From contig CAJOCT010000003.1 in the NCBI GenBank assembly GCA_905236725.1, positions 1 to 47,942 on the forward strand: a DNA stretch of 47,942 nucleotides. Direction: 5' to 3'. A program made the position numbers and the translations under genes. This DNA comes from an uncultured Selenomonadaceae bacterium (GTDB taxonomy: Bacteria; Bacillota; Negativicutes; Selenomonadales; Selenomonadaceae). Below the pieces are notes generated by a model. The model did not search any database, was not told the origin of the DNA, and saw only the letters and a list, made by a program, of their open reading frames with translations. Positions 6,207-27,722 of the stretch are shown here, in pieces (position 1 is the first letter of the stretch; every line of letters begins with the position of its first letter).

Positions 6207-9200
6207 TTGGCACAGCGAAATATTTTTGAAATGCTCGGCTTGGAATTTGATCCTCCCGACAATTTAAAAAAAATTCGTGCGGCGTACGAAACGTGGAAGA
6301 AAAAATTAACTTCAGAGCAAAACACGACTGTTGACCCGAACCGCCTGGAAATTATAAAGTCCGAACTTGCGATGGAAAATTACATCGTTCAAACTATCGA
6401 AAACGCAAGACTTCGGCAACACGAGGCGGAAAATTTAAAACAAAATCGAATCGAACAGCTCCGGCTTTATATCGACATTCAGCGCGGCGACAATTCCGGA
6501 ACTTTGCAGGTCAATCAGGCGCAAATCCGTCAAATAAAAGAAAAATTAAAACTTTCAACGACGACTATTGAGGCGACTTACCGCGAGCAGGGTTTTGAAA
6601 TAAAAAAGCCGCGAACCGATAAAAAAATTTCGGACACGCTGAATAATTTTTTTATTTCGGATTCGGTGATGAATGAGCTGAAAAAAAATTTTGCAGATTT
6701 TCAAAAAGTCCCTGACGCGCGAAATTATTCTTGGTCGGCCAATGTCAACGATTTATACGAGTTGGCGTATTATATCGAAGGGCAGGTCGAAAGTTCTGCG
6801 GATTATTACAAGCGGCGCGATACGGACGACTTGCGAGAAATTTTTCAAAATGAGGCAAAAAAAGTTTCTCAACCGATTCCCGCCTGGCAGTCGATAAAAT
6901 CTTTGCTGAATTTGGCGCAGACGCAAATTTTCAACTCAAATGACAACCGCTGGAAATATGATCATTCGCTCATGTTGGAAAAGTTGAGCGATTTTTTTGC
7001 AAAGTTGAAAGCCGCGCCGGAAATTTTTAAGCGCGATAAATTTTTTGCGGATAATTGCATAAGTCGAATCAGAAAAACTTTCCCGAATTTTTTGACGTAC
7101 GAGTTGAGTGCGGCACTTTACAACAAGGCGGCGGGACTTTTGAAAGAGCCGTACGAGTCGACGGACAATTTTTTTGAAAATTATTTTTGCGTGACTTGTG
7201 CGAATTGCGGAGCCTTTGAAAATTTTCGTACGCGCGAAGAGGCGGAGCGGGCAACTTGCAAAATTTGCGGCGAAAATTTTTATATCGCCTGCCCCAAGTG
7301 CGGCAAAAAAGTTCCTGCAACCGCGGATCACTGCAAGGCGTGCGATTTTTCTTTGAGCGAGCTGAAAAAATATAATTACTATATCGATTACGCAAATTCG
7401 CTTTTGGATTTGGTCGAGCGCGGCGCAAAGTCAATCGACGACGACGTTAAAAATGTCATCGCGGAGGTTATGAAAGTTTTTGCGCGGGCGAAACTCATCA
7501 AAGCCGAAGCGTTGGACTTGAAAAAAATCGAGTGGCGCATAAATAAAATTAACGCGGAATTTAAAAAGCGCGAGTTGGTTCGTTGGGCTGAATCAAAAAT
7601 GCCGGCTCTGGGCACTCCCGACGAAAAAGCCGTCAGCGACTGCATGGAAATTTTGCGCAGGTACAAAGATTACAAGCCTGCGCGAGAAAGATTAAAACTC
7701 ATCAAGCCGAAAAAACCGCTGAAAATTTCCGCGACGATTAAAGAAAATGAGCCTCAACCTCAACAAATTTTTTCAAGCGCGGCGATTTTAAGCAAAATTT
7801 CCGTCAATGCAAAGTCGACGAGTTTAACTCCCGCAACTTATAATTTAACGGCGACGATTTCTTGGCGACCCGACAACGATTTGGGCGTTGTGTACACCGT
7901 CATAAAAAAAACTGACGGCGTGCCGAAAAATTTCAACGACGGCGAAATTTTAATTGAAGGCACCGACAAATTGGAAGTTACGGACAATAATATAAAGCCC
8001 GGCGTTTTGTACGGTTGGGCGGTTTTTGCAAAACGACTCGGCGCGATTTCGGATTTGGTAACCTGCACCGCCGTCCATTACAGCGACATCGAAGAAAACA
8101 AACTCATCGCCAAGACCGAAGGCGGTTACTGTCAATTCACTTGGCGTTTGCCGTCGGATAATTGTTTGGGCGTGAGAGTTTTGCGATCGGACAGCGCGGG
8201 CAACAGCGTCGTTGTTGACGATTGCGTTCATTCGCCTTTTGTTGATAAACTTGTAAAAAATCGAAAGCAATATCAATATCGCCTGCAGTGCGTCTATTAT
8301 TCGGCGGAAGAAACTTTGGCGGATCGCGAAAAATTTTTGGCGGAGGCGGACAACGAAAATTTTAATAAGGTTTGGAAATCCAATCGAACTTACAAATACA
8401 GTCACGGCTTGACGGTCACCTTAACGCCGGAATTTCCGCCGCGACTTTTGAAAAATTTAAATTTCAACGTCATAAATCATCACGTGAGTTTTAATTGGCA
8501 ATCGACGGGCGAGTTTGATGTTTGGTTCAAAGAAATTTCTCCCGACAAAAAATTTCCCGTTGCACAGGAGAAAAAAATTTTTAACCTCGACAAACTCGAC
8601 GAACTTTTGGGCAGCGGCGTTATTTTGAAGAGCGAAGAAAGTTCAAAACAATTTTGTGAATTTGCAATGACCGGCGACGTTATGAAAATTGCCGTCATCA
8701 GCGCGACAAAAGATTTGGGAATCGTCAACGAAATTGTCACTGCGGCCAATGTTGAGCCTTGCGAAATTGACGAAAAAAAAACGCAGATCGACGCGAACGG
8801 CTTAAAGTTGGTTTTAAAAAATTTGCCGAAAAATTTATATCTGATTCATTACAAAATTCAAACCGAAGATTCCGACGAATTTTTCGCGGCGGTCGAGGAC
8901 GCAAAGGCGCGGCACTTAAACAGAATTTACGCAACGAAATACGCGCAGGACACTTTTATTTCTCAACCGCACTTGCCGCAAAAAGAACTTTACATCACGG
9001 TTATCGGCGAATATAAATTGGCGGACGGCTCAATAATTTATTCCGCGCCAAGCAAAATGATTTTGAACAATCGCCCGAAGGCTGTAATTTTTTATTGGCT
9101 TGAGTGGGGGACGAGCGGACTTTTCAACAAAAAAGCACACGCGAAAAATTGCAAGCTCATCATCGAAAGCGACGCAAAAGAAATCCCGAAAATGTTCCTG

Positions 9201-9443
9201 GCTTGCAGAAAAGACGGACGAATGAATATTGAGTTAAAAGATTCTTCAACACAACGTTTATACGCCGTGAAAGAATATGCAAACGGTTTTCCGAACGGGC
9301 GACTGGAAATTCTTTTGCCTGACGACACTTGGCACAACATTGCGCCGGGAACTGTCGTAAAACTTTTGACTCAACCCGAAAACGCAAAATTTTTCGACTT
9401 AAAACCTGCCAAGCCCGACAGCTTAACCGTTCCGAAAAAATAA
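6207..9443 (+). CDS. Large J-like/zinc-ribbon/FN3-like scaffold protein
   Basis: This 1078-residue protein starts at TTG 6207 behind AGGGGGC. Residues ~1-35 (NIFEMLGLEFDPP...IRAAYETWKKKL) look like helices of a J domain, but the HPD tripeptide needed to stimulate Hsp70 is absent. A helical region follows. Two zinc ribbons are clear: C331/C334 with C351/C354, and C362/C365 with C376/C379 (CPKCGKK, CKACDF). From about 530 to 760 there are two or three beta-sandwich units resembling fibronectin type III (LYGWAVFAKR, QYRLQCVYY). The C-terminal ~300 residues are unknown. No signal peptide or membrane segment is present, so it is cytoplasmic. With the GTPase directly downstream, it is most simply read as the scaffold or sensor of a multi-protein complex. 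Confidence 0.65.
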   Translation: MAQRNIFEMLGLEFDPPDNLKKIRAAYETWKKKLTSEQNTTVDPNRLEIIKSELAMENYIVQTIENARLRQHEAENLKQNRIEQLRLYIDIQRGDNSGTLQVNQAQIRQIKEKLKLSTTTIEATYREQGFEIKKPRTDKKISDTLNNFFISDSVMNELKKNFADFQKVPDARNYSWSANVNDLYELAYYIEGQVESSADYYKRRDTDDLREIFQNEAKKVSQPIPAWQSIKSLLNLAQTQIFNSNDNRWKYDHSLMLEKLSDFFAKLKAAPEIFKRDKFFADNCISRIRKTFPNFLTYELSAALYNKAAGLLKEPYESTDNFFENYFCVTCANCGAFENFRTREEAERATCKICGENFYIACPKCGKKVPATADHCKACDFSLSELKKYNYYIDYANSLLDLVERGAKSIDDDVKNVIAEVMKVFARAKLIKAEALDLKKIEWRINKINAEFKKRELVRWAESKMPALGTPDEKAVSDCMEILRRYKDYKPARERLKLIKPKKPLKISATIKENEPQPQQIFSSAAILSKISVNAKSTSLTPATYNLTATISWRPDNDLGVVYTVIKKTDGVPKNFNDGEILIEGTDKLEVTDNNIKPGVLYGWAVFAKRLGAISDLVTCTAVHYSDIEENKLIAKTEGGYCQFTWRLPSDNCLGVRVLRSDSAGNSVVVDDCVHSPFVDKLVKNRKQYQYRLQCVYYSAEETLADREKFLAEADNENFNKVWKSNRTYKYSHGLTVTLTPEFPPRLLKNLNFNVINHHVSFNWQSTGEFDVWFKEISPDKKFPVAQEKKIFNLDKLDELLGSGVILKSEESSKQFCEFAMTGDVMKIAVISATKDLGIVNEIVTAANVEPCEIDEKKTQIDANGLKLVLKNLPKNLYLIHYKIQTEDSDEFFAAVEDAKARHLNRIYATKYAQDTFISQPHLPQKELYITVIGEYKLADGSIIYSAPSKMILNNRPKAVIFYWLEWGTSGLFNKKAHAKNCKLIIESDAKEIPKMFLACRKDGRMNIELKDSSTQRLYAVKEYANGFPNGRLEILLPDDTWHNIAPGTVVKLLTQPENAKFFDLKPAKPDSLTVPKK

Positions 9444-17913: not shown

Positions 17914-18750
17914 TTGCAGAAAAATAAGTTGGTTGCTCCTGTTTTAAAGTGGGTCGGAGGAAAAAGGCAACTTGTTGAGATTTTTCTTGAATTGATTCCA
18001 AAAAATATAAACTCATATTGCGAGCCCTTTCTTGGCGGAGGTGCTTTATTTTTTTCACTTCAACCCAAAACAGCTTATGTAAATGACATAAATGAAAATT
18101 TGATGCTTGTTTACAACGTTATTCGCGATGATGTTGAAAAACTTATTGAGGAACTTTCGACGTTTAAAAACGAATCGGAATTTTTTTATTCTGTGAGAGA
18201 TTGGGACAGAAATCCCGAAAAATACAATTCTTTGTCAGAAATCAAACGCGCTGCAAGAATTATTTATTTGAATAAAACTTGTTACAACGGTTTGTATCGT
18301 GTCAATAATGCGGGAGAGTTTAACAGTCCTTTCGGAAGTTACCGCAATCCGAATATTGTAAATGCGCCGGTTCTTCGTGCCGTCAGCAAATATTTCAATT
18401 CTGCACAAATTTTTTTCACTTCGACGGATTACGCTGAAATTTTAGCCGAAATTCCAAAAAAAACTTTTGTATATCTCGATCCGCCATATGATCCGATTTC
18501 TTCAACTTCAAATTTTACGGGATATTCAAAGGGCGGATTTACTCACGAAGATCAAATTCGCTTGAAGGAATGTTGCGACTGTTTGACGGAGAAAAAAATT
18601 AAATTTATGCTTTCAAATTCAAAGACGGATTTTATTTTAGATTTATATTCCGCGTACAATATCACAACTGTTCAGGCGAAAAGATCGATAAATTCTGTCG
18701 GAACGGGTCGCGGAAATGTTGAGGAAGTTGTTGTCAGAAATTATGAGTGA
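17914..18750 (+). CDS. Dam-family (D12 class) adenine-N6 DNA methyltransferase
   Basis: The start is TTG 17914, eight bases after GAAAGGAG. The 278-residue protein has the D12-class order: N-terminal LKWVGGKRQL, SAM-binding EPFLGGGA at 37-44, NDINENL, catalytic DPPY at 189-192, and a FTGYSKGGFTHEDQIRL target-recognition segment typical of M.DpnII/Dam enzymes that modify adenine in GATC or related sites. The exact site cannot be read from sequence. It overlaps the following endonuclease gene by eight bases (ATGAGTGA), so the two form a type II restriction-modification pair. Both genes look more A/T-rich than their neighbours, as expected for acquired DNA. Confidence 0.9.
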   Translation: MQKNKLVAPVLKWVGGKRQLVEIFLELIPKNINSYCEPFLGGGALFFSLQPKTAYVNDINENLMLVYNVIRDDVEKLIEELSTFKNESEFFYSVRDWDRNPEKYNSLSEIKRAARIIYLNKTCYNGLYRVNNAGEFNSPFGSYRNPNIVNAPVLRAVSKYFNSAQIFFTSTDYAEILAEIPKKTFVYLDPPYDPISSTSNFTGYSKGGFTHEDQIRLKECCDCLTEKKIKFMLSNSKTDFILDLYSAYNITTVQAKRSINSVGTGRGNVEEVVVRNYE

Positions 18751-20017
18751 AAATAAAAATAATTCTGCTTGGCAAAAAATTTTTGAAAAATATGATGTTC
18801 TGAGAGAAATAGAGCGCAATAATATTTTCAAAATTTCTGCCGAACAAATAAGAGAATTTAGAGAGCCGCGCCTTATGGCAAAATTCGACCACAAAATAAA
18901 TTTGCCAAAAATTTTTCTCGAAAATGGCTTATCGATTTTGCCGATTACGAGAGGCGATTACATAATTTCTCATTTCGATTTGTATCATAAATTTGAAGCT
19001 GAAAATAAAAATATTTGTAAAATGCAATTACCCGATTATATTCAAAGTCTTGACTGCAATGATATTTTCAGCGAATCCGTTGCGTTAAATTGTGCATTTG
19101 CGTCGGGAATAATTTCTGATTTTATTGAAGACGAACAAATTATTCCGGCTGTATTTGGCAGAATGGGCGCAGGCAGTTTTAATTTTTCAGTAGACGACGT
19201 AAAAAATTCTTCAAAACTTTCGATTCAAGTTAAAAATCCTCAAATCGAAATTGATGCCTCATATGAAGGAATAAATAATTTCGCAATATTTGAGGCCAAA
19301 CGCGATATTTCGGAAGATTTTTTGATACGTCAAATTTATTATCCTTACAGAATGTGGAAAGAGAAATTGACGAAAAATATCAAGACCGTTTTTTTCGTGT
19401 ATTCAAACGGAATTTATCATTTGTACGAATATAAATTTGAAAATCCCGAGCATTACAATTCTTTGCAACTTGTTAAGCAAAAAAATTATTCTGTCGAGGA
19501 TACAAAAATAACTGTCGAAGATATTCAAAAAATTTTAAGCGAAATAAATTTTTTGCCGGAGCCCGAAGATATACCGTTTCCGCAAGCAGATAAATTTGAA
19601 CGTATTATAAATTTATGCGAACTTTTGAGCAAAAAAGAAATGCATAAAGATGAAATTACGCAAAAATATGATTTTGATTCAAGACAGACGAATTATTACA
19701 CTGCCGCCGCACGTTATCTGGGACTTATCGAAGGTAAAAATTTGAAATATAATTTGAGCAATTCAGGCAAAAAAATTTTGTCCTGCAATTTTAAAAATCG
19801 CCAGCTTGCTTACTGCAAATGCATTTTATCGCACAAAATTTTTTATGACATTTTGAGAAAATATTTTGAATGCGGAGAAATGCCCGACAAAAATTACATT
19901 ATTCGATTGATGAAAAAATCCAATCTGAATGATATAAAAAGTGATGAAACATTCGGGCGACGTTCGTCGACAATAAAAAGTTGGATAAATTGGATCGTCG
20001 AGTTGATAAATGAATAA
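18743..20017 (+). CDS. Putative type II restriction endonuclease
   Basis: The start is ATG 18743, overlapping the methyltransferase stop; the frame extends to 18716 but only inside the methyltransferase. The product has 424 residues. A PD-(D/E)xK-like core is visible: EID at 169-171 followed by a strand with FEAK (E184, K186), then RQIYYPYR near 195-203, an arrangement used by restriction nucleases. Residues ~290-370 form winged-helix-like units (KKEMHKDEITQKYDF, TAAARYLGLIEG) that may read DNA. It is much larger than DpnII/MboI-type partners, so the recognition site may differ from GATC. Identification rests on the PD-(D/E)xK signs and gene pairing. Confidence 0.72.
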   Translation: MSENKNNSAWQKIFEKYDVLREIERNNIFKISAEQIREFREPRLMAKFDHKINLPKIFLENGLSILPITRGDYIISHFDLYHKFEAENKNICKMQLPDYIQSLDCNDIFSESVALNCAFASGIISDFIEDEQIIPAVFGRMGAGSFNFSVDDVKNSSKLSIQVKNPQIEIDASYEGINNFAIFEAKRDISEDFLIRQIYYPYRMWKEKLTKNIKTVFFVYSNGIYHLYEYKFENPEHYNSLQLVKQKNYSVEDTKITVEDIQKILSEINFLPEPEDIPFPQADKFERIINLCELLSKKEMHKDEITQKYDFDSRQTNYYTAAARYLGLIEGKNLKYNLSNSGKKILSCNFKNRQLAYCKCILSHKIFYDILRKYFECGEMPDKNYIIRLMKKSNLNDIKSDETFGRRSSTIKSWINWIVELINE

Positions 20018-22557: not shown

Positions 22558-23154
22558 CTACGAAAAAATAATCAGTCCGCCTTTTTGAGAAAAACCGGTG
22601 TCCCAGAGAATATCGAAATTAAACCAACGCGCAACGCCGTAGCTCACGACCTTAACAAAAACTTTTTCGTCGATAAACTCGTAACCTGTCAGCAAAAACC
22701 AATGCCAAACATAATCTTCAAGTTGCGGGTTTTTGTGGTTCAGCACAAGGCAGGGAATCGGCCAACCGTTATCAATCTGATATTTCAAAACCATGTGCGT
22801 CGCCTCAAAGTCCTGCTCGCCCGCCCACGGCAAAAGTTTTAAATTTTTTTCTCCGCGATCTTCCAAAAATTTCGTAAAGCCGTCAATATAAATTTTCAGC
22901 GTGTTTATCCCCGACCAGCGCGGATGCAAATAAGGCTCCATCACGTCGGTAAATTTTACGTAATCCTCCCGCGTCAAATTATTTTTGTCGAAAGGATAAA
23001 GCCCGGAAAAATTTTTGTAAAGTTCAAAATAAATAGAACAGTCACACGCCGTAACCGCTCCGCAACCGCCGATCCTCATCATATATTTCGGCAACCACTC
23101 CTGTTGCCCGCCGTAAGACTCGCCGATTTTAAAATACGGCAACTCGTTTTTCAT
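22558..23154 (-). CDS. Hypothetical C39-like/papain-fold protein
   Basis: A 198-residue protein starting at ATG 23154 with AAGGAAG upstream. GGCGAVTA places a cysteine (C31) at the head of a helix, and VWHWFLLTGY places a histidine (H151) on a strand. This spacing and the aromatic-rich GYEF segment are like cysteine peptidases of the C39-like type. A later aspartate (D181 or D185) could complete a triad. No signal peptide is present, so an intracellular role is likely. The substrate is unknown and peptidase activity is unproven; it may be a non-peptidase relative. Confidence 0.55.
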   Translation of the reverse strand: MKNELPYFKIGESYGGQQEWLPKYMMRIGGCGAVTACDCSIYFELYKNFSGLYPFDKNNLTREDYVKFTDVMEPYLHPRWSGINTLKIYIDGFTKFLEDRGEKNLKLLPWAGEQDFEATHMVLKYQIDNGWPIPCLVLNHKNPQLEDYVWHWFLLTGYEFIDEKVFVKVVSYGVARWFNFDILWDTGFSQKGGLIIFS

Positions 23155-23271
23155 TTAATCAACTTCCTTTGCGAAAAATTTACCACAATCTTTTACTACA
23201 TGCAAATTTGCAGGAAAAATTTTTTATCGGCAGAAAATCTTTTGAGAAAATTTTTTGGGGAAGTGATTTTT

Positions 23272-23850
23272 TTGAAGACGAAAATTATTGTGGGAATAAC
23301 CGGCGCGAGCGGAATTTTAATTGCCGTTGAACTTTTAAAGCGACTGAAAAAAATTGAGACCGTCGAAACTCATTTGATTGTAACCGACGGCGGCGAACTT
23401 ACCATTCGGGACGAAACCGATTTTGATGCATACGAAATCAAACGCCTTGCCGATGTTGTTTACGATGTTCACGAAATGGACGCGGCGATTGCCAGCGGAA
23501 GTTTTTTGGTTGAAGGAATGGTGATTGTTCCCTGCACGATGAAAACTGTTGCCGGAATTGCCGCCGGTTACTGCGAAAATTTACTTTTGCGGGCGGCTGA
23601 TGTCTGCATTAAAGAAAACCGAAAACTTATTTTAATTCCTCGCGAAATGCCTTTCAGCAAAATTCATCTTCGCAATATGAAAGAATTGGCGGATTTTGGC
23701 GTTGTGATTATGCCGCCGGTGATGACTTTTTATCAAACAGATATTACAATCGAGGCGCAAATAAACCACATCGTGAACAAAATTTTATTGCAACTTAATT
23801 TGCCTTCGGAAATTATTGAGTGGCGGGGCGGAAAAAAAATCAGCCTTTAA
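23272..23850 (+). CDS. ubiX: UbiX-family flavin prenyltransferase
   Basis: The start is TTG 23272 with GGGGAAG ten bases upstream; the frame upstream to 22924 is antisense to the C39-like gene. The 192-residue product has the flavoprotein signature VGITGASGILIAVELL and the CTMKTVAGIAAGYCENLLLRA and REMPFSKIHLRNM segments. UbiX enzymes join dimethylallyl phosphate to FMN to make the prenylated FMN cofactor of UbiD decarboxylases. No UbiD gene is in the window. Its last four bases overlap the convergent thrB gene. Confidence 0.88.
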   Translation: MKTKIIVGITGASGILIAVELLKRLKKIETVETHLIVTDGGELTIRDETDFDAYEIKRLADVVYDVHEMDAAIASGSFLVEGMVIVPCTMKTVAGIAAGYCENLLLRAADVCIKENRKLILIPREMPFSKIHLRNMKELADFGVVIMPPVMTFYQTDITIEAQINHIVNKILLQLNLPSEIIEWRGGKKISL

Positions 23851-24935: not shown

Positions 24936-26585
24936 TTATGAAGATTTTTTTGCCTTTTTGAGTTGTCGCGCCTCGTAACGTTTTTTTGCTTCGGCAAGAA
25001 TTTTGTTCATCGGGTGATTTTCGCGCGAAGGACAATTTTCATTCCCGCAATAAACCATCGGCGCACGGTCTTTAAACTTGTGCAAAAAACGCGTTGAGCC
25101 GCAATGTCGGCAAAGTTGTTCCTGCGGCTCGTCCCAAGTTCTGAAATCGCACGTCGGGAAATTTTCGCAGCCGTAAAAAACTCTTTTGCCGAAATTTCTT
25201 TTCGTCAACCGCCCGCCGCACTTCGGACATTTTTTCTCAAGATATTCAAAAATCGGCTTCGCGTTTTTACATTCGGGATAGCCGGAACAAGCTAAAAATC
25301 TGCCGTAACGCCCGCGCTTGATTAACATCGGTCGCCCGCACTTTTCGCAAACCTCATCGCTCTCGATAACCGGCTCATCTTGCGGCGTTGCATTTTCGCC
25401 AAGTTCAGCCATTGCCGCTTCAAAAGATTTTTCAAACGTCGCGCAATAATTTTCGACGACAGAATTTTTTTCAACTTTGCCCGCCGAAATTTCTTCAATC
25501 TGCGCGGAAATTTTTTTGTAAGAATCGACGCTGAAAACCTCGTCAAAAAAACCGTCCAACGCGCTCAAAACTTTTTTGCCGATGTCGGTAATTTTTATTT
25601 CGGAATTTTCGACCTCAACATATTTTCTTTTGATAAGCGAACTGATTCCGCCCGAATAAAATTTTTCCCAGTCGACCTGCAAAGCGTCAAAAATCGCCAT
25701 CAAAGAGGCTTCGGAACATTTCCCGTTCAAAATAATTTTTTCGTCAACGCTTTTATCGACTTGCGAAAAAATTAAATCGTACAGTTGAAATTGAGCCGCA
25801 GACAAATAATTTTTGACGCTTTCGGGAGTTCGTCTTTCGCTCGAAAGTTGAATCTCCTCGCCGTGCGGAAATTTTATCAGACCCGCGCAACCTTCTTTAT
25901 CAAAATTCAAGCCCTCAAAAAGTTGTTCGGCGATGACGCGCGTTTTCGTCGCGGAAAAATTTAATTTTTGAAAAGCCAGCTCCTGCAAGACTGCGGGGGA
26001 AAATTTTTTTGCAAGGACAATTTCGCCGTTCAGCTGCTTGCCTTCGATAAGTTTCAACAAAAGTGCGCGAAACCTGCCGACTTTCACGCCGCGATAAATT
26101 TTGCAGGAAAGATATTCGCCGATTTTTTGACTGATAAATTTGTCGATAATCTGCCGCGCCTGAAAAGATTTTACAAGATTTTCGTCGATCGCCCGCGCAT
26201 TTTCAATCGCATTTTTTACCGCGTCTTTCGTGAGTTCGTCGAAAAAAATTCTGCAACGGGATTTTGAATTTACTCCGAAAAGTTCGCAACACTGTTTAGC
26301 CAAAAATTCGCCGGTGTCGTCGGGAGTCGTCGCAAAAAAAACTCGCCGCGCATTCAGTGCCTCGCGCCCGATTTCTTTGAGCAATGAACCTTTTCCGCGC
26401 ACCGTGATATAATCCGGCGAAAAATTTTTTTCTGCGTCTATCCCCAGTCGGCTTTTCGGCAAGTCTTTCAAAAATCCGTCAGTTGACATCACCAAGTAGG
26501 CTCGACTCAAAAGTTTTTTCAACGTTCGTGCTTTTCCCGCGCTGTCCGTCAAAACCAAAGATTTCAAGGTTTTTTCTTTCGCCAA
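24936..26585 (-). CDS. Degenerate topoisomerase I (TopA) homologue lacking catalytic residues
   Basis: This 549-residue protein starts at ATG 26585. The layout is that of TopA: N-terminal TOPRIM-like domain (DLPKSRLGID, YITVRGKG near 41-66), core, then three zinc fingers at C413-C439, C453-C479 and C492-C518. Key residues are changed. The ESPAKAK motif reads TDSAGKA; the metal-binding DPDREGEA reads TPDDTGEF (88-94), losing one aspartate and the glutamate. The active-site block, usually GLITYMRTDS, reads GLIKFPHGEE (235-244), with no tyrosine. It is also about 150 residues shorter than typical TopA (central domain reduced). It is unlikely to cut DNA, but the intact frame and zinc fingers suggest a conserved DNA- or RNA-binding job. 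It follows dprA, the classic topA position. Confidence 0.85.
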   Translation of the reverse strand: MAKEKTLKSLVLTDSAGKARTLKKLLSRAYLVMSTDGFLKDLPKSRLGIDAEKNFSPDYITVRGKGSLLKEIGREALNARRVFFATTPDDTGEFLAKQCCELFGVNSKSRCRIFFDELTKDAVKNAIENARAIDENLVKSFQARQIIDKFISQKIGEYLSCKIYRGVKVGRFRALLLKLIEGKQLNGEIVLAKKFSPAVLQELAFQKLNFSATKTRVIAEQLFEGLNFDKEGCAGLIKFPHGEEIQLSSERRTPESVKNYLSAAQFQLYDLIFSQVDKSVDEKIILNGKCSEASLMAIFDALQVDWEKFYSGGISSLIKRKYVEVENSEIKITDIGKKVLSALDGFFDEVFSVDSYKKISAQIEEISAGKVEKNSVVENYCATFEKSFEAAMAELGENATPQDEPVIESDEVCEKCGRPMLIKRGRYGRFLACSGYPECKNAKPIFEYLEKKCPKCGGRLTKRNFGKRVFYGCENFPTCDFRTWDEPQEQLCRHCGSTRFLHKFKDRAPMVYCGNENCPSRENHPMNKILAEAKKRYEARQLKKAKKSS

Positions 26586-26633
26586 TTAAAACTCCTCCAA
26601 ATTTAGTTTTCAGTGGGTAAAAATTTTTAAAAA

Positions 26634-27722
26634 TTATTTTCTGGTATATCGTCCGCCGTCTTCAACAACGCAATTTTTCAGCCCGAGTTCAATCATCACC
26701 GCCGAAATTTCGCTCACGTCAATATCGTCAACCTGCATCAAAATTTCATCAAGCGTAATATATTCATTGGCGGGGATTATGTCAAAAATTTTTTTCTCAA
26801 TTTCGTTCAGTTTGGCGGGTTCATTCGTCAAAATTTTTTCTGTGGGAACGGGGACTTTTTCAAAATTATATTGATCAAAAACATCTTGCGCACTTGTGAC
26901 TAAAATCGCGCCGTCTCGAATAAGTTCATGGCAACCGGCACTTTTCGGGAAAAAAATATTTCCCGGCACGGCAAAAACATCGCGCCCCGATTCGCCCGCA
27001 CAATTCGCCGTGATAAGTGCGCCGCTTTTTTTTCCCGCCTCGATTACGATAACTCCGCGCGAAAGCCCCGCGATAATTCTGTTTCTCGAAGGAAAACTCC
27101 CTGCGTTCGGCGTAAAATTCGGATTAAATTCAGTTAAAACCGCGCCGCGCTCGGAAATTTTTTCAAAAAGTTTTCTGCCGCCGTGTTTGAAAGCCCAATT
27201 TATTCCGCAAGCCAAAACCGCAACGGTTCGCCCGAATTTTAACGCTCCTTGGTGCGCAAAAGTGTCGATTCCGATTGCCGCGCCGCTGACGACCGTCAAC
27301 CCCGCCGCCGCCAACTCCTCGCCGAAATGCATTGCGATTTTTCTTCCGTAATCGGTATAATCTCGCGTGCCGACAACCGCAATTCTTTCCGCAAAAGTTT
27401 CAATTTTTCCGCGATAATACAAAACTGCGGGGGGATTTGAAATTTCTTTCAAAATCGGCGGATAATCTTCGTCCGAAATGCAAGTTAAGCCAAAATCTTT
27501 TTCTCGGCAAAATTCCGCCAACTTTTCGGGGGTATCGGGATATTTTTCTCGAAAGGTCAAAAAAGATTCCAACGCTCTCGGCGGCAGTCCGGATTTTTCA
27601 ATTTCTTCGCGCTCGGCTTTCCAAAAATTTTCCGCCGACTTGAAAACTTTTGACATTTTAACCGTTCGCTGACTTCCCATTTGACTTGCCGCATTCACCG
27701 CCGCCATAAAAAATTTTTCCAC
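26634..27722 (-). CDS. dprA: DNA-processing protein DprA
   Basis: DprA binds incoming single-stranded DNA in transformation and loads RecA. The start is GTG 27722, seven bases after GAGGAAGG. The 362-residue product has an N-terminal helical (SAM/HhH-like) part, the Rossmann-like DprA core with AVVGTRDYTDYGRK, VVSGAAIGIDTFAH, GSFPSRNRIIAGLS and SGALITANCA, and a C-terminal winged helix (residues ~305-360). It is complete. The topoisomerase-like gene follows after 48 bases. Confidence 0.93.
   Translation of the reverse strand: MEKFFMAAVNAASQMGSQRTVKMSKVFKSAENFWKAEREEIEKSGLPPRALESFLTFREKYPDTPEKLAEFCREKDFGLTCISDEDYPPILKEISNPPAVLYYRGKIETFAERIAVVGTRDYTDYGRKIAMHFGEELAAAGLTVVSGAAIGIDTFAHQGALKFGRTVAVLACGINWAFKHGGRKLFEKISERGAVLTEFNPNFTPNAGSFPSRNRIIAGLSRGVIVIEAGKKSGALITANCAGESGRDVFAVPGNIFFPKSAGCHELIRDGAILVTSAQDVFDQYNFEKVPVPTEKILTNEPAKLNEIEKKIFDIIPANEYITLDEILMQVDDIDVSEISAVMIELGLKNCVVEDGGRYTRK

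Follow-up and report, generated by a model that had tools for sequence, protein, structure and literature searches.

The window, the whole stretch of 47,942 nucleotides that was analysed here, comes from an uncultured Selenomonadaceae bacterium. On its reverse strand it carries a TopA-like open reading frame of 549 codons, which starts with TTG and follows dprA on the same strand after a gap of 48 bp. The genes around it are a thrB-like kinase gene, a flavoprotein gene, pyrBC, and a pfk-like gene. Between the cytochrome bd oxidase and pyrB lies a type II restriction-modification pair (17914-20017, +), in which a D12-class adenine methyltransferase (PF02086) precedes the type II restriction enzyme (PADLOC REase_II, 415 bits; DUF6996/6997/7226). 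A 1078-aa open frame at 6207-9443 (+) gave no Pfam match at 1e-8. A 198-aa frame without a Pfam match (22558-23154, -) overlaps the start of the flavoprotein frame (22924-23850, +); the Pfam match of the flavoprotein begins only at residue 120, so that its start is probably further downstream of 22924.

The features of the locus are listed below. Domain boundaries, and the assignment of the deleted blocks to domains II and III, follow E. coli TopA numbering, which we take to apply here.

26634..27722 (-), dprA, upstream gene on the same strand (PF02481, 242 bits)
26757..26785 (-), candidate promoter of the TopA-like gene's own, TTGACA-17-TATATT, within the 3' end of dprA (agrees with the consensus at 11 of 12 positions)
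26592..26598 (-), Shine-Dalgarno sequence GGAGGAG, 6 nt upstream of the TTG
24936..26585 (-), TopA-like gene, whole ORF, 549 aa (ORF call, Pfam and TIGR01051 homology, orthologues)
26232..26570 (-), Toprim domain remnant, aa 6-118 (PF01751, 26.0 bits against 23.1; phmmer match to 6ozw)
26304..26327 (-), degenerate metal site, aa 87-94, reading TPDDTGEF where TopA has DPDREGEA, with D89, G92, and E93 kept (66-sequence alignment)
26067..26087 (-), motif VKVGRFR, aa 167-173, specific to the clade and replacing the LSAGRVQ of domain IV (F172 and R173 in all 44 main-clade sequences)
26028..26033 (-), junction of deletion 1, 63-65 aa, which removes the first half of the domain-II arch (residue comparison)
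25854..25883 (-), former catalytic loop GLIKFPHGEE, aa 235-244, with Phe239 at the Tyr319 position (phmmer, alignment)
within 25854..25883 (-), junction of deletion 2, 43 aa including HEAIRP, at the end of the GLIKFPHGEE loop (residue comparison)
25741..25746 (-), junction of deletion 3, 65-67 aa, which removes the second half of domain II with the adjoining part (residue comparison)
25656..25673 (-), DWEKFY, aa 305-310, with W for the invariant Arg of GRPSTY (W in 50 of 51 homologues; every canonical TopA has R)
25401..25715 (-), C-terminal part of domain IV, aa 291-395 (PF01131 profile positions 344-410; model pLDDT about 80-90)
25251..25355 (-), zinc ribbon 1, C413, C416, C433, C439, with the GRYG nucleotide-binding motif (PF01396; invariant in the main clade)
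25140..25235 (-), zinc ribbon 2, C453, C456, C473, C479 (PF01396, conservation)
25026..25118 (-), zinc ribbon 3, C492, C495, C513, C518 (conserved cysteines, model strands)

By descent the 549-aa protein belongs to the type IA topoisomerase superfamily. The profile of bacterial TopA (TIGR01051) matched it far beyond chance (E = 1.1e-74), with 252.6 bits where the curated cut-off is 456.4; the profile of topoisomerase III (TopB, TIGR01056) gave 42 bits against a cut-off of 515.75. All Pfam gathering scores were exceeded (Toprim, 26.0 over 23.1; Topoisom_bac, 62.4 over 35.1; Zn_ribbon_Top1, 78 over 32), and in a phmmer search of solved structures the protein aligned piecewise to the TopA of Streptococcus mutans and E. 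coli. A preliminary description of this DNA had placed a TopA homologue with three zinc fingers at the dprA-topA position, and this is confirmed by the TIGR01051 and Pfam matches, the 12 cysteines, and dprA 48 bp upstream. The dprA-topA order is ancestral, as full TopA stands beside dprA in genome G003 of the same genus and in relatives from the class; dprA also adjoins the short gene in most relatives. An AlphaFold model of the protein, built on 8 sequences, had a pLDDT of 67.5, with most of Toprim below 50; it was good only from domain IV onward and contributes little.

The losses were mapped in an alignment of 66 sequences, made up of 51 short homologues and 15 full TopA from Selenomonadaceae (G003 included) and other families of the class. 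In the window copy, VESPAKA has become TDSAGKA (E9 to D, a conservative change), DPDREGEA has become TPDDTGEF (D111 to T and E115 to T, with D113, G116, and E117 unchanged), and GLITYMRTDS has become GLIKFPHGEE (Y319 to F, R321 to H), exactly the motif changes first reported. The acidic set required in TopA, E9/D111/D113/E115, reads D/T/D/T and is incomplete. The protein had been described as about 150 residues short; the shortening is real, and its size is refined to about 171-175 residues, lost in three clean deletions (63-65, 43, and 65-67 residues) that are common to all 51 short homologues and whose junctions nearly coincide in the sequences that were compared at residue level. The HEAIRP block (His365, domain III) and both domain-II arch segments are deleted in every one of them. 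D111 is replaced in 45 of the 51 (N in 40, other residues in 5; D in the remaining 6) and E115 is lost in 43, while D113 is present in 45 and position 9 is E or D throughout. The position of Tyr319 is occupied by Y in 37 sequences, F in 11, W in 2, and C in 1, and main-clade sequences have a Pro directly after the Tyr, like Topo III. Arg321 is R in just 5 of the 51, and the Arg of GRPSTY is replaced in all, by W in 50. As read from the alignment, the clade-wide lesion is the loss of the HEAIRP block and of the domain-II arch; loss of the tyrosine does not define it, and the earlier emphasis on that residue was misplaced. G032, the least derived relative, retains the Tyr and the complete set of four acidic residues, with the three blocks already gone, a distribution of losses which suggests that the block deletions came first and that active-site residues drifted later. 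In TopA, Arg321, the Toprim residues, and His365 are required for cleavage and religation, and D111N in the active enzyme traps lethal cleavage complexes (PMC7587558), which is consistent with a protein that no longer cleaves. The 549-aa protein is almost certainly unable to cut DNA, and the predicted enzymatically dead state of the short TopA is well supported.

One large genus of rumen Selenomonadaceae, with more than 60 species and genome sizes of 1.3-3.5 Mb, carries the short form: 54 of its 60 sampled genomes have it. Among the other six, G003 has full TopA and five (G002, G006, G036, G073, and G082) have neither form. The relatives with names are assemblies from rumen, sheep, goat, and red deer that bear the label Selenomonadaceae, which makes Quinella (PMC9585023) a plausible candidate for the genus. 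The short TopA clade is monophyletic (support 100/100), with one origin for the whole genus. The tree of dprA places G003 between the outgroups and all other genus members (support 94/92), a position that identifies it as the earliest branch. In an order sample of 151 genomes, canonical TopA scored above the cut-off in 106 of 109 genomes outside the genus vs 1 of 42 inside it; we infer this absence from metagenome or unnamed assemblies, many of them incomplete, yet it is consistent.

In the short TopA, constraint has been altered and has not given way to neutrality. Within the main clade all 12 zinc cysteines and the GRYG motif are near-invariant. G116 and E117 are retained, and position 9 is still acidic. 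At 36 positions one near-invariant residue of canonical TopA has been exchanged for another that is near-invariant in the main clade (R493 to W, Q197 to R, and V to F in GRFR are examples), compared with only 2 such positions in TopB of the same genus vs the family. Frames of 546-609 codons are open in dozens of species, and dN/dS in close pairs is 0.12-0.24, similar to that of dprA. The short TopA evolves at 1.7 times the rate of TopB in the same genomes; the relative rate of canonical TopA is 0.65, from the sole family pair available. The dN/dS values, the kept zinc cysteines, and the 36 switched positions argue that the protein is being retained and that the gene is no decaying pseudogene. 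The proposal of a retained pseudoenzyme in the preliminary description gains further support from the single origin and from the deletion of the catalytic blocks in all 51 sequences. Of the comparisons it had suggested, clade-wide loss holds for the deletions and purifying selection is evident, but the tyrosine is not lost across the clade.

The same description expected an active TopA elsewhere in the genome, and this expectation failed. No second canonical TopA was detected by Pfam and TIGR01051 search in the window's 97%-complete genome, in which the two further type IA genes both encode TopB, and 41 of 42 genus members in the order sample are without canonical TopA. TopB is ancestral in the family. 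It scored above the search threshold in every sampled genus member except G003, and the full-length copies that were read have DPDREGQ and YPRSD intact. G003, the earliest branch, has full TopA and no TopB, and the others have TopB and no working TopA. In the window's genome the C27 copy of TopB is the vertical one. The second (G000:C47:13768-15078) sits on a long separate branch with copies from G013, G036, and G073; it is perhaps carried by a mobile element, and because of this branch it was rejected as a replacement for TopA. Most of the other family members read have a distal C-terminal zinc-ribbon extension (~130 aa) on TopB that the main TopB of the genus is without, though several genus members have a TopB with 2-3 ribbons. 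Compensatory remodelling of the TopB core was also rejected, as just the 2 positions are switched and the main change is the loss of a distal C-terminal ribbon, with extra ribbons instead in some members.

One type IIA A subunit is encoded in the window's genome, and one (gyrase) in nearly all of 61 Selenomonadaceae genomes, which points to an absence of Topo IV across the family. The topoisomerase set of the genus would appear to be gyrase and TopB (Topo III). E. coli topA mutants depend on gyrase mutations or extra Topo IV (PMC6160223). With Topo IV missing in the family, its amplification, one of the common rescues when E. coli loses topA, would be unavailable.

It is fairly probable, in our judgement, that the gene is a topA descendant turned into a non-cutting, gate-less binder of ssDNA or R-loops, with the cutting done by TopB. 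The chromosomal topA would have become a pseudoenzyme in the ancestor of the genus, after G003 had split off. The three deletions take out the arch of domain II and the catalytic portion of domain III and leave no strand-passage gate; decay of the metal site, and of the tyrosine in some lineages, probably came later. What remains is a core resembling Toprim, a domain IV whose DNA-groove motif is remodelled and newly fixed, and the three zinc ribbons, in which the residues that bind single-stranded nucleic acid in TopA are still present. In TopA, zinc-ribbon aromatics bind ssDNA (PMC10969213). The short protein may bind, without cutting, ssDNA or R-loops exposed by negative supercoiling, possibly at transcription bubbles and attached to RNA polymerase, or it may shield or mark R-loops. 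It might also help or recruit TopB, which would do the cutting. The cells would run with gyrase and without TopA or Topo IV, relaxation having been handed to TopB. A nucleic-acid-binding function had been offered earlier as a possibility; the kept ribbons and zinc ligands favor it, and we infer the role itself, with any putative partner, from sequence. Against the proposed role, R169 to Q, Q197 to R, and R493 to W are changes of domain-IV residues that are close to the DNA in TopA, and the old DNA-binding mode may be gone. Some residual chemistry may persist in parts of the clade, given the Tyr and four acidic residues of G032. The further claim of a large free-living lineage that lives on gyrase and Topo III only, its former TopA being a non-cutting ssDNA/R-loop subunit that partners TopB or RNA polymerase (one protein that cuts and one disarmed paralogue), is tentative and rather doubtful.

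Recruitment to DprA-linked ssDNA handling, in transformation or recombination and with no role in supercoiling, is unlikely. The gene lies 48 bp from dprA on the same strand, and dprA is absent from all five genus members that are without either TopA form. However, the gene order is ancestral, joint absence of neighbours is expected from a single deletion or an assembly gap, and dprA and the short TopA are on different contigs in G034, G028, and G029. In addition, comEC is present in G006, which is 99% complete and has no dprA and no TopA-like gene. Loss of both genes seems real in G006, where the short TopA is dispensable. Five independent losses of the short gene, which is missing from genomes scattered on the TopB tree, are not claimed, as four of the five are merely 80-84% complete. 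A link to competence was likewise rejected, because adjacency or missing contigs explain the co-loss and comEC is kept in G006.

A mainly structural or regulatory role at RNA polymerase, exerted through the zinc ribbons and independent of DNA, is quite unlikely. The ribbons of E. coli TopA bind RNA polymerase (Cheng et al., 2003, as cited in PMC10969213), and ribbons are among the best-conserved regions of the short protein, but the ssDNA-binding motif is conserved equally. A Foldseek search with the model returned TopA structures, including RNA polymerase-bound TopA. That match was discarded as evidence for the polymerase, since it reflects TopA homology only and the model is poor.

We consider it very improbable that the protein is a divergent but active minimal topoisomerase or nickase, in which E9/D113/E117 (and the Tyr where present) cleave one strand, perhaps with no religation or only together with TopB. 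Such an enzyme would account for the frequent Tyr and D113, the invariably acidic position 9, the full acidic set with Tyr in G032, and the Topo III-like Pro after the Tyr in the main clade. Every member, however, is missing the HEAIRP block and domain II, few keep Arg321, the window copy has Phe and no DxD, and D111N would trap lethal cleavage complexes (PMC7587558) and be selected against if cleavage persisted. A decaying pseudogene with a frame intact by chance, to which the faster rate than TopB and the outright absence of the gene in G006 could be attributed, is hardly tenable, being already contradicted by the long open frames in dozens of species, the low dN/dS, the conserved zinc ligands, and the 36 newly fixed residues.

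The non-cutting TopA descendant favored here resembles bacterial TopA (TIGR01051) in descent, dprA-side locus, Toprim, domain IV, a domain III remnant, and three C4 zinc ribbons; it differs in being a short protein without domain II and HEAIRP, with a degenerate metal site and, in the window copy, Phe for Tyr. With TopB it shares the superfamily, and in most relatives a Pro follows the Tyr position in a way reminiscent of TYPR, but a complete and separate TopB occurs in the same genomes and the TIGR01056 score is low. Bacterial pseudoenzymes derived from DNA enzymes have lost catalytic residues and kept the binding scaffold under selection, and the short TopA has likewise lost catalysis and kept its scaffold under selection. 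The topA gene has been lost in some Buchnera (PMC11813355) and is a pseudogene in Blochmannia obliquus (PMC4389277). These endosymbionts are also bacteria without a working TopA, but their genomes are reduced and topA is deleted or broken, whereas the rumen genus has genomes of 1.3-3.5 Mb and keeps the gene as a conserved short protein. In the literature searched, which included few subscription journals, there was no TopA-derived pseudoenzyme and no larger-genome genus without TopA.

In reviews, topoisomerase I has been placed in all bacteria (PMC7140829), or bacteria are described as having at least one (PMC10969213). The exceptions that we found to this universality are reduced-genome insect endosymbionts, to which the rumen genus adds a larger-genome case. 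A TopA-like match does not equal TopA activity, which calls for caution in annotation. The genus provides a natural experiment on whether gyrase can be balanced by Topo III alone, and a conserved, disarmed TopA offers a way to separate TopA binding from TopA cutting. If the proposal is true, type IA activity would be split in these bacteria between a cutter (TopB) and a disarmed paralogue.
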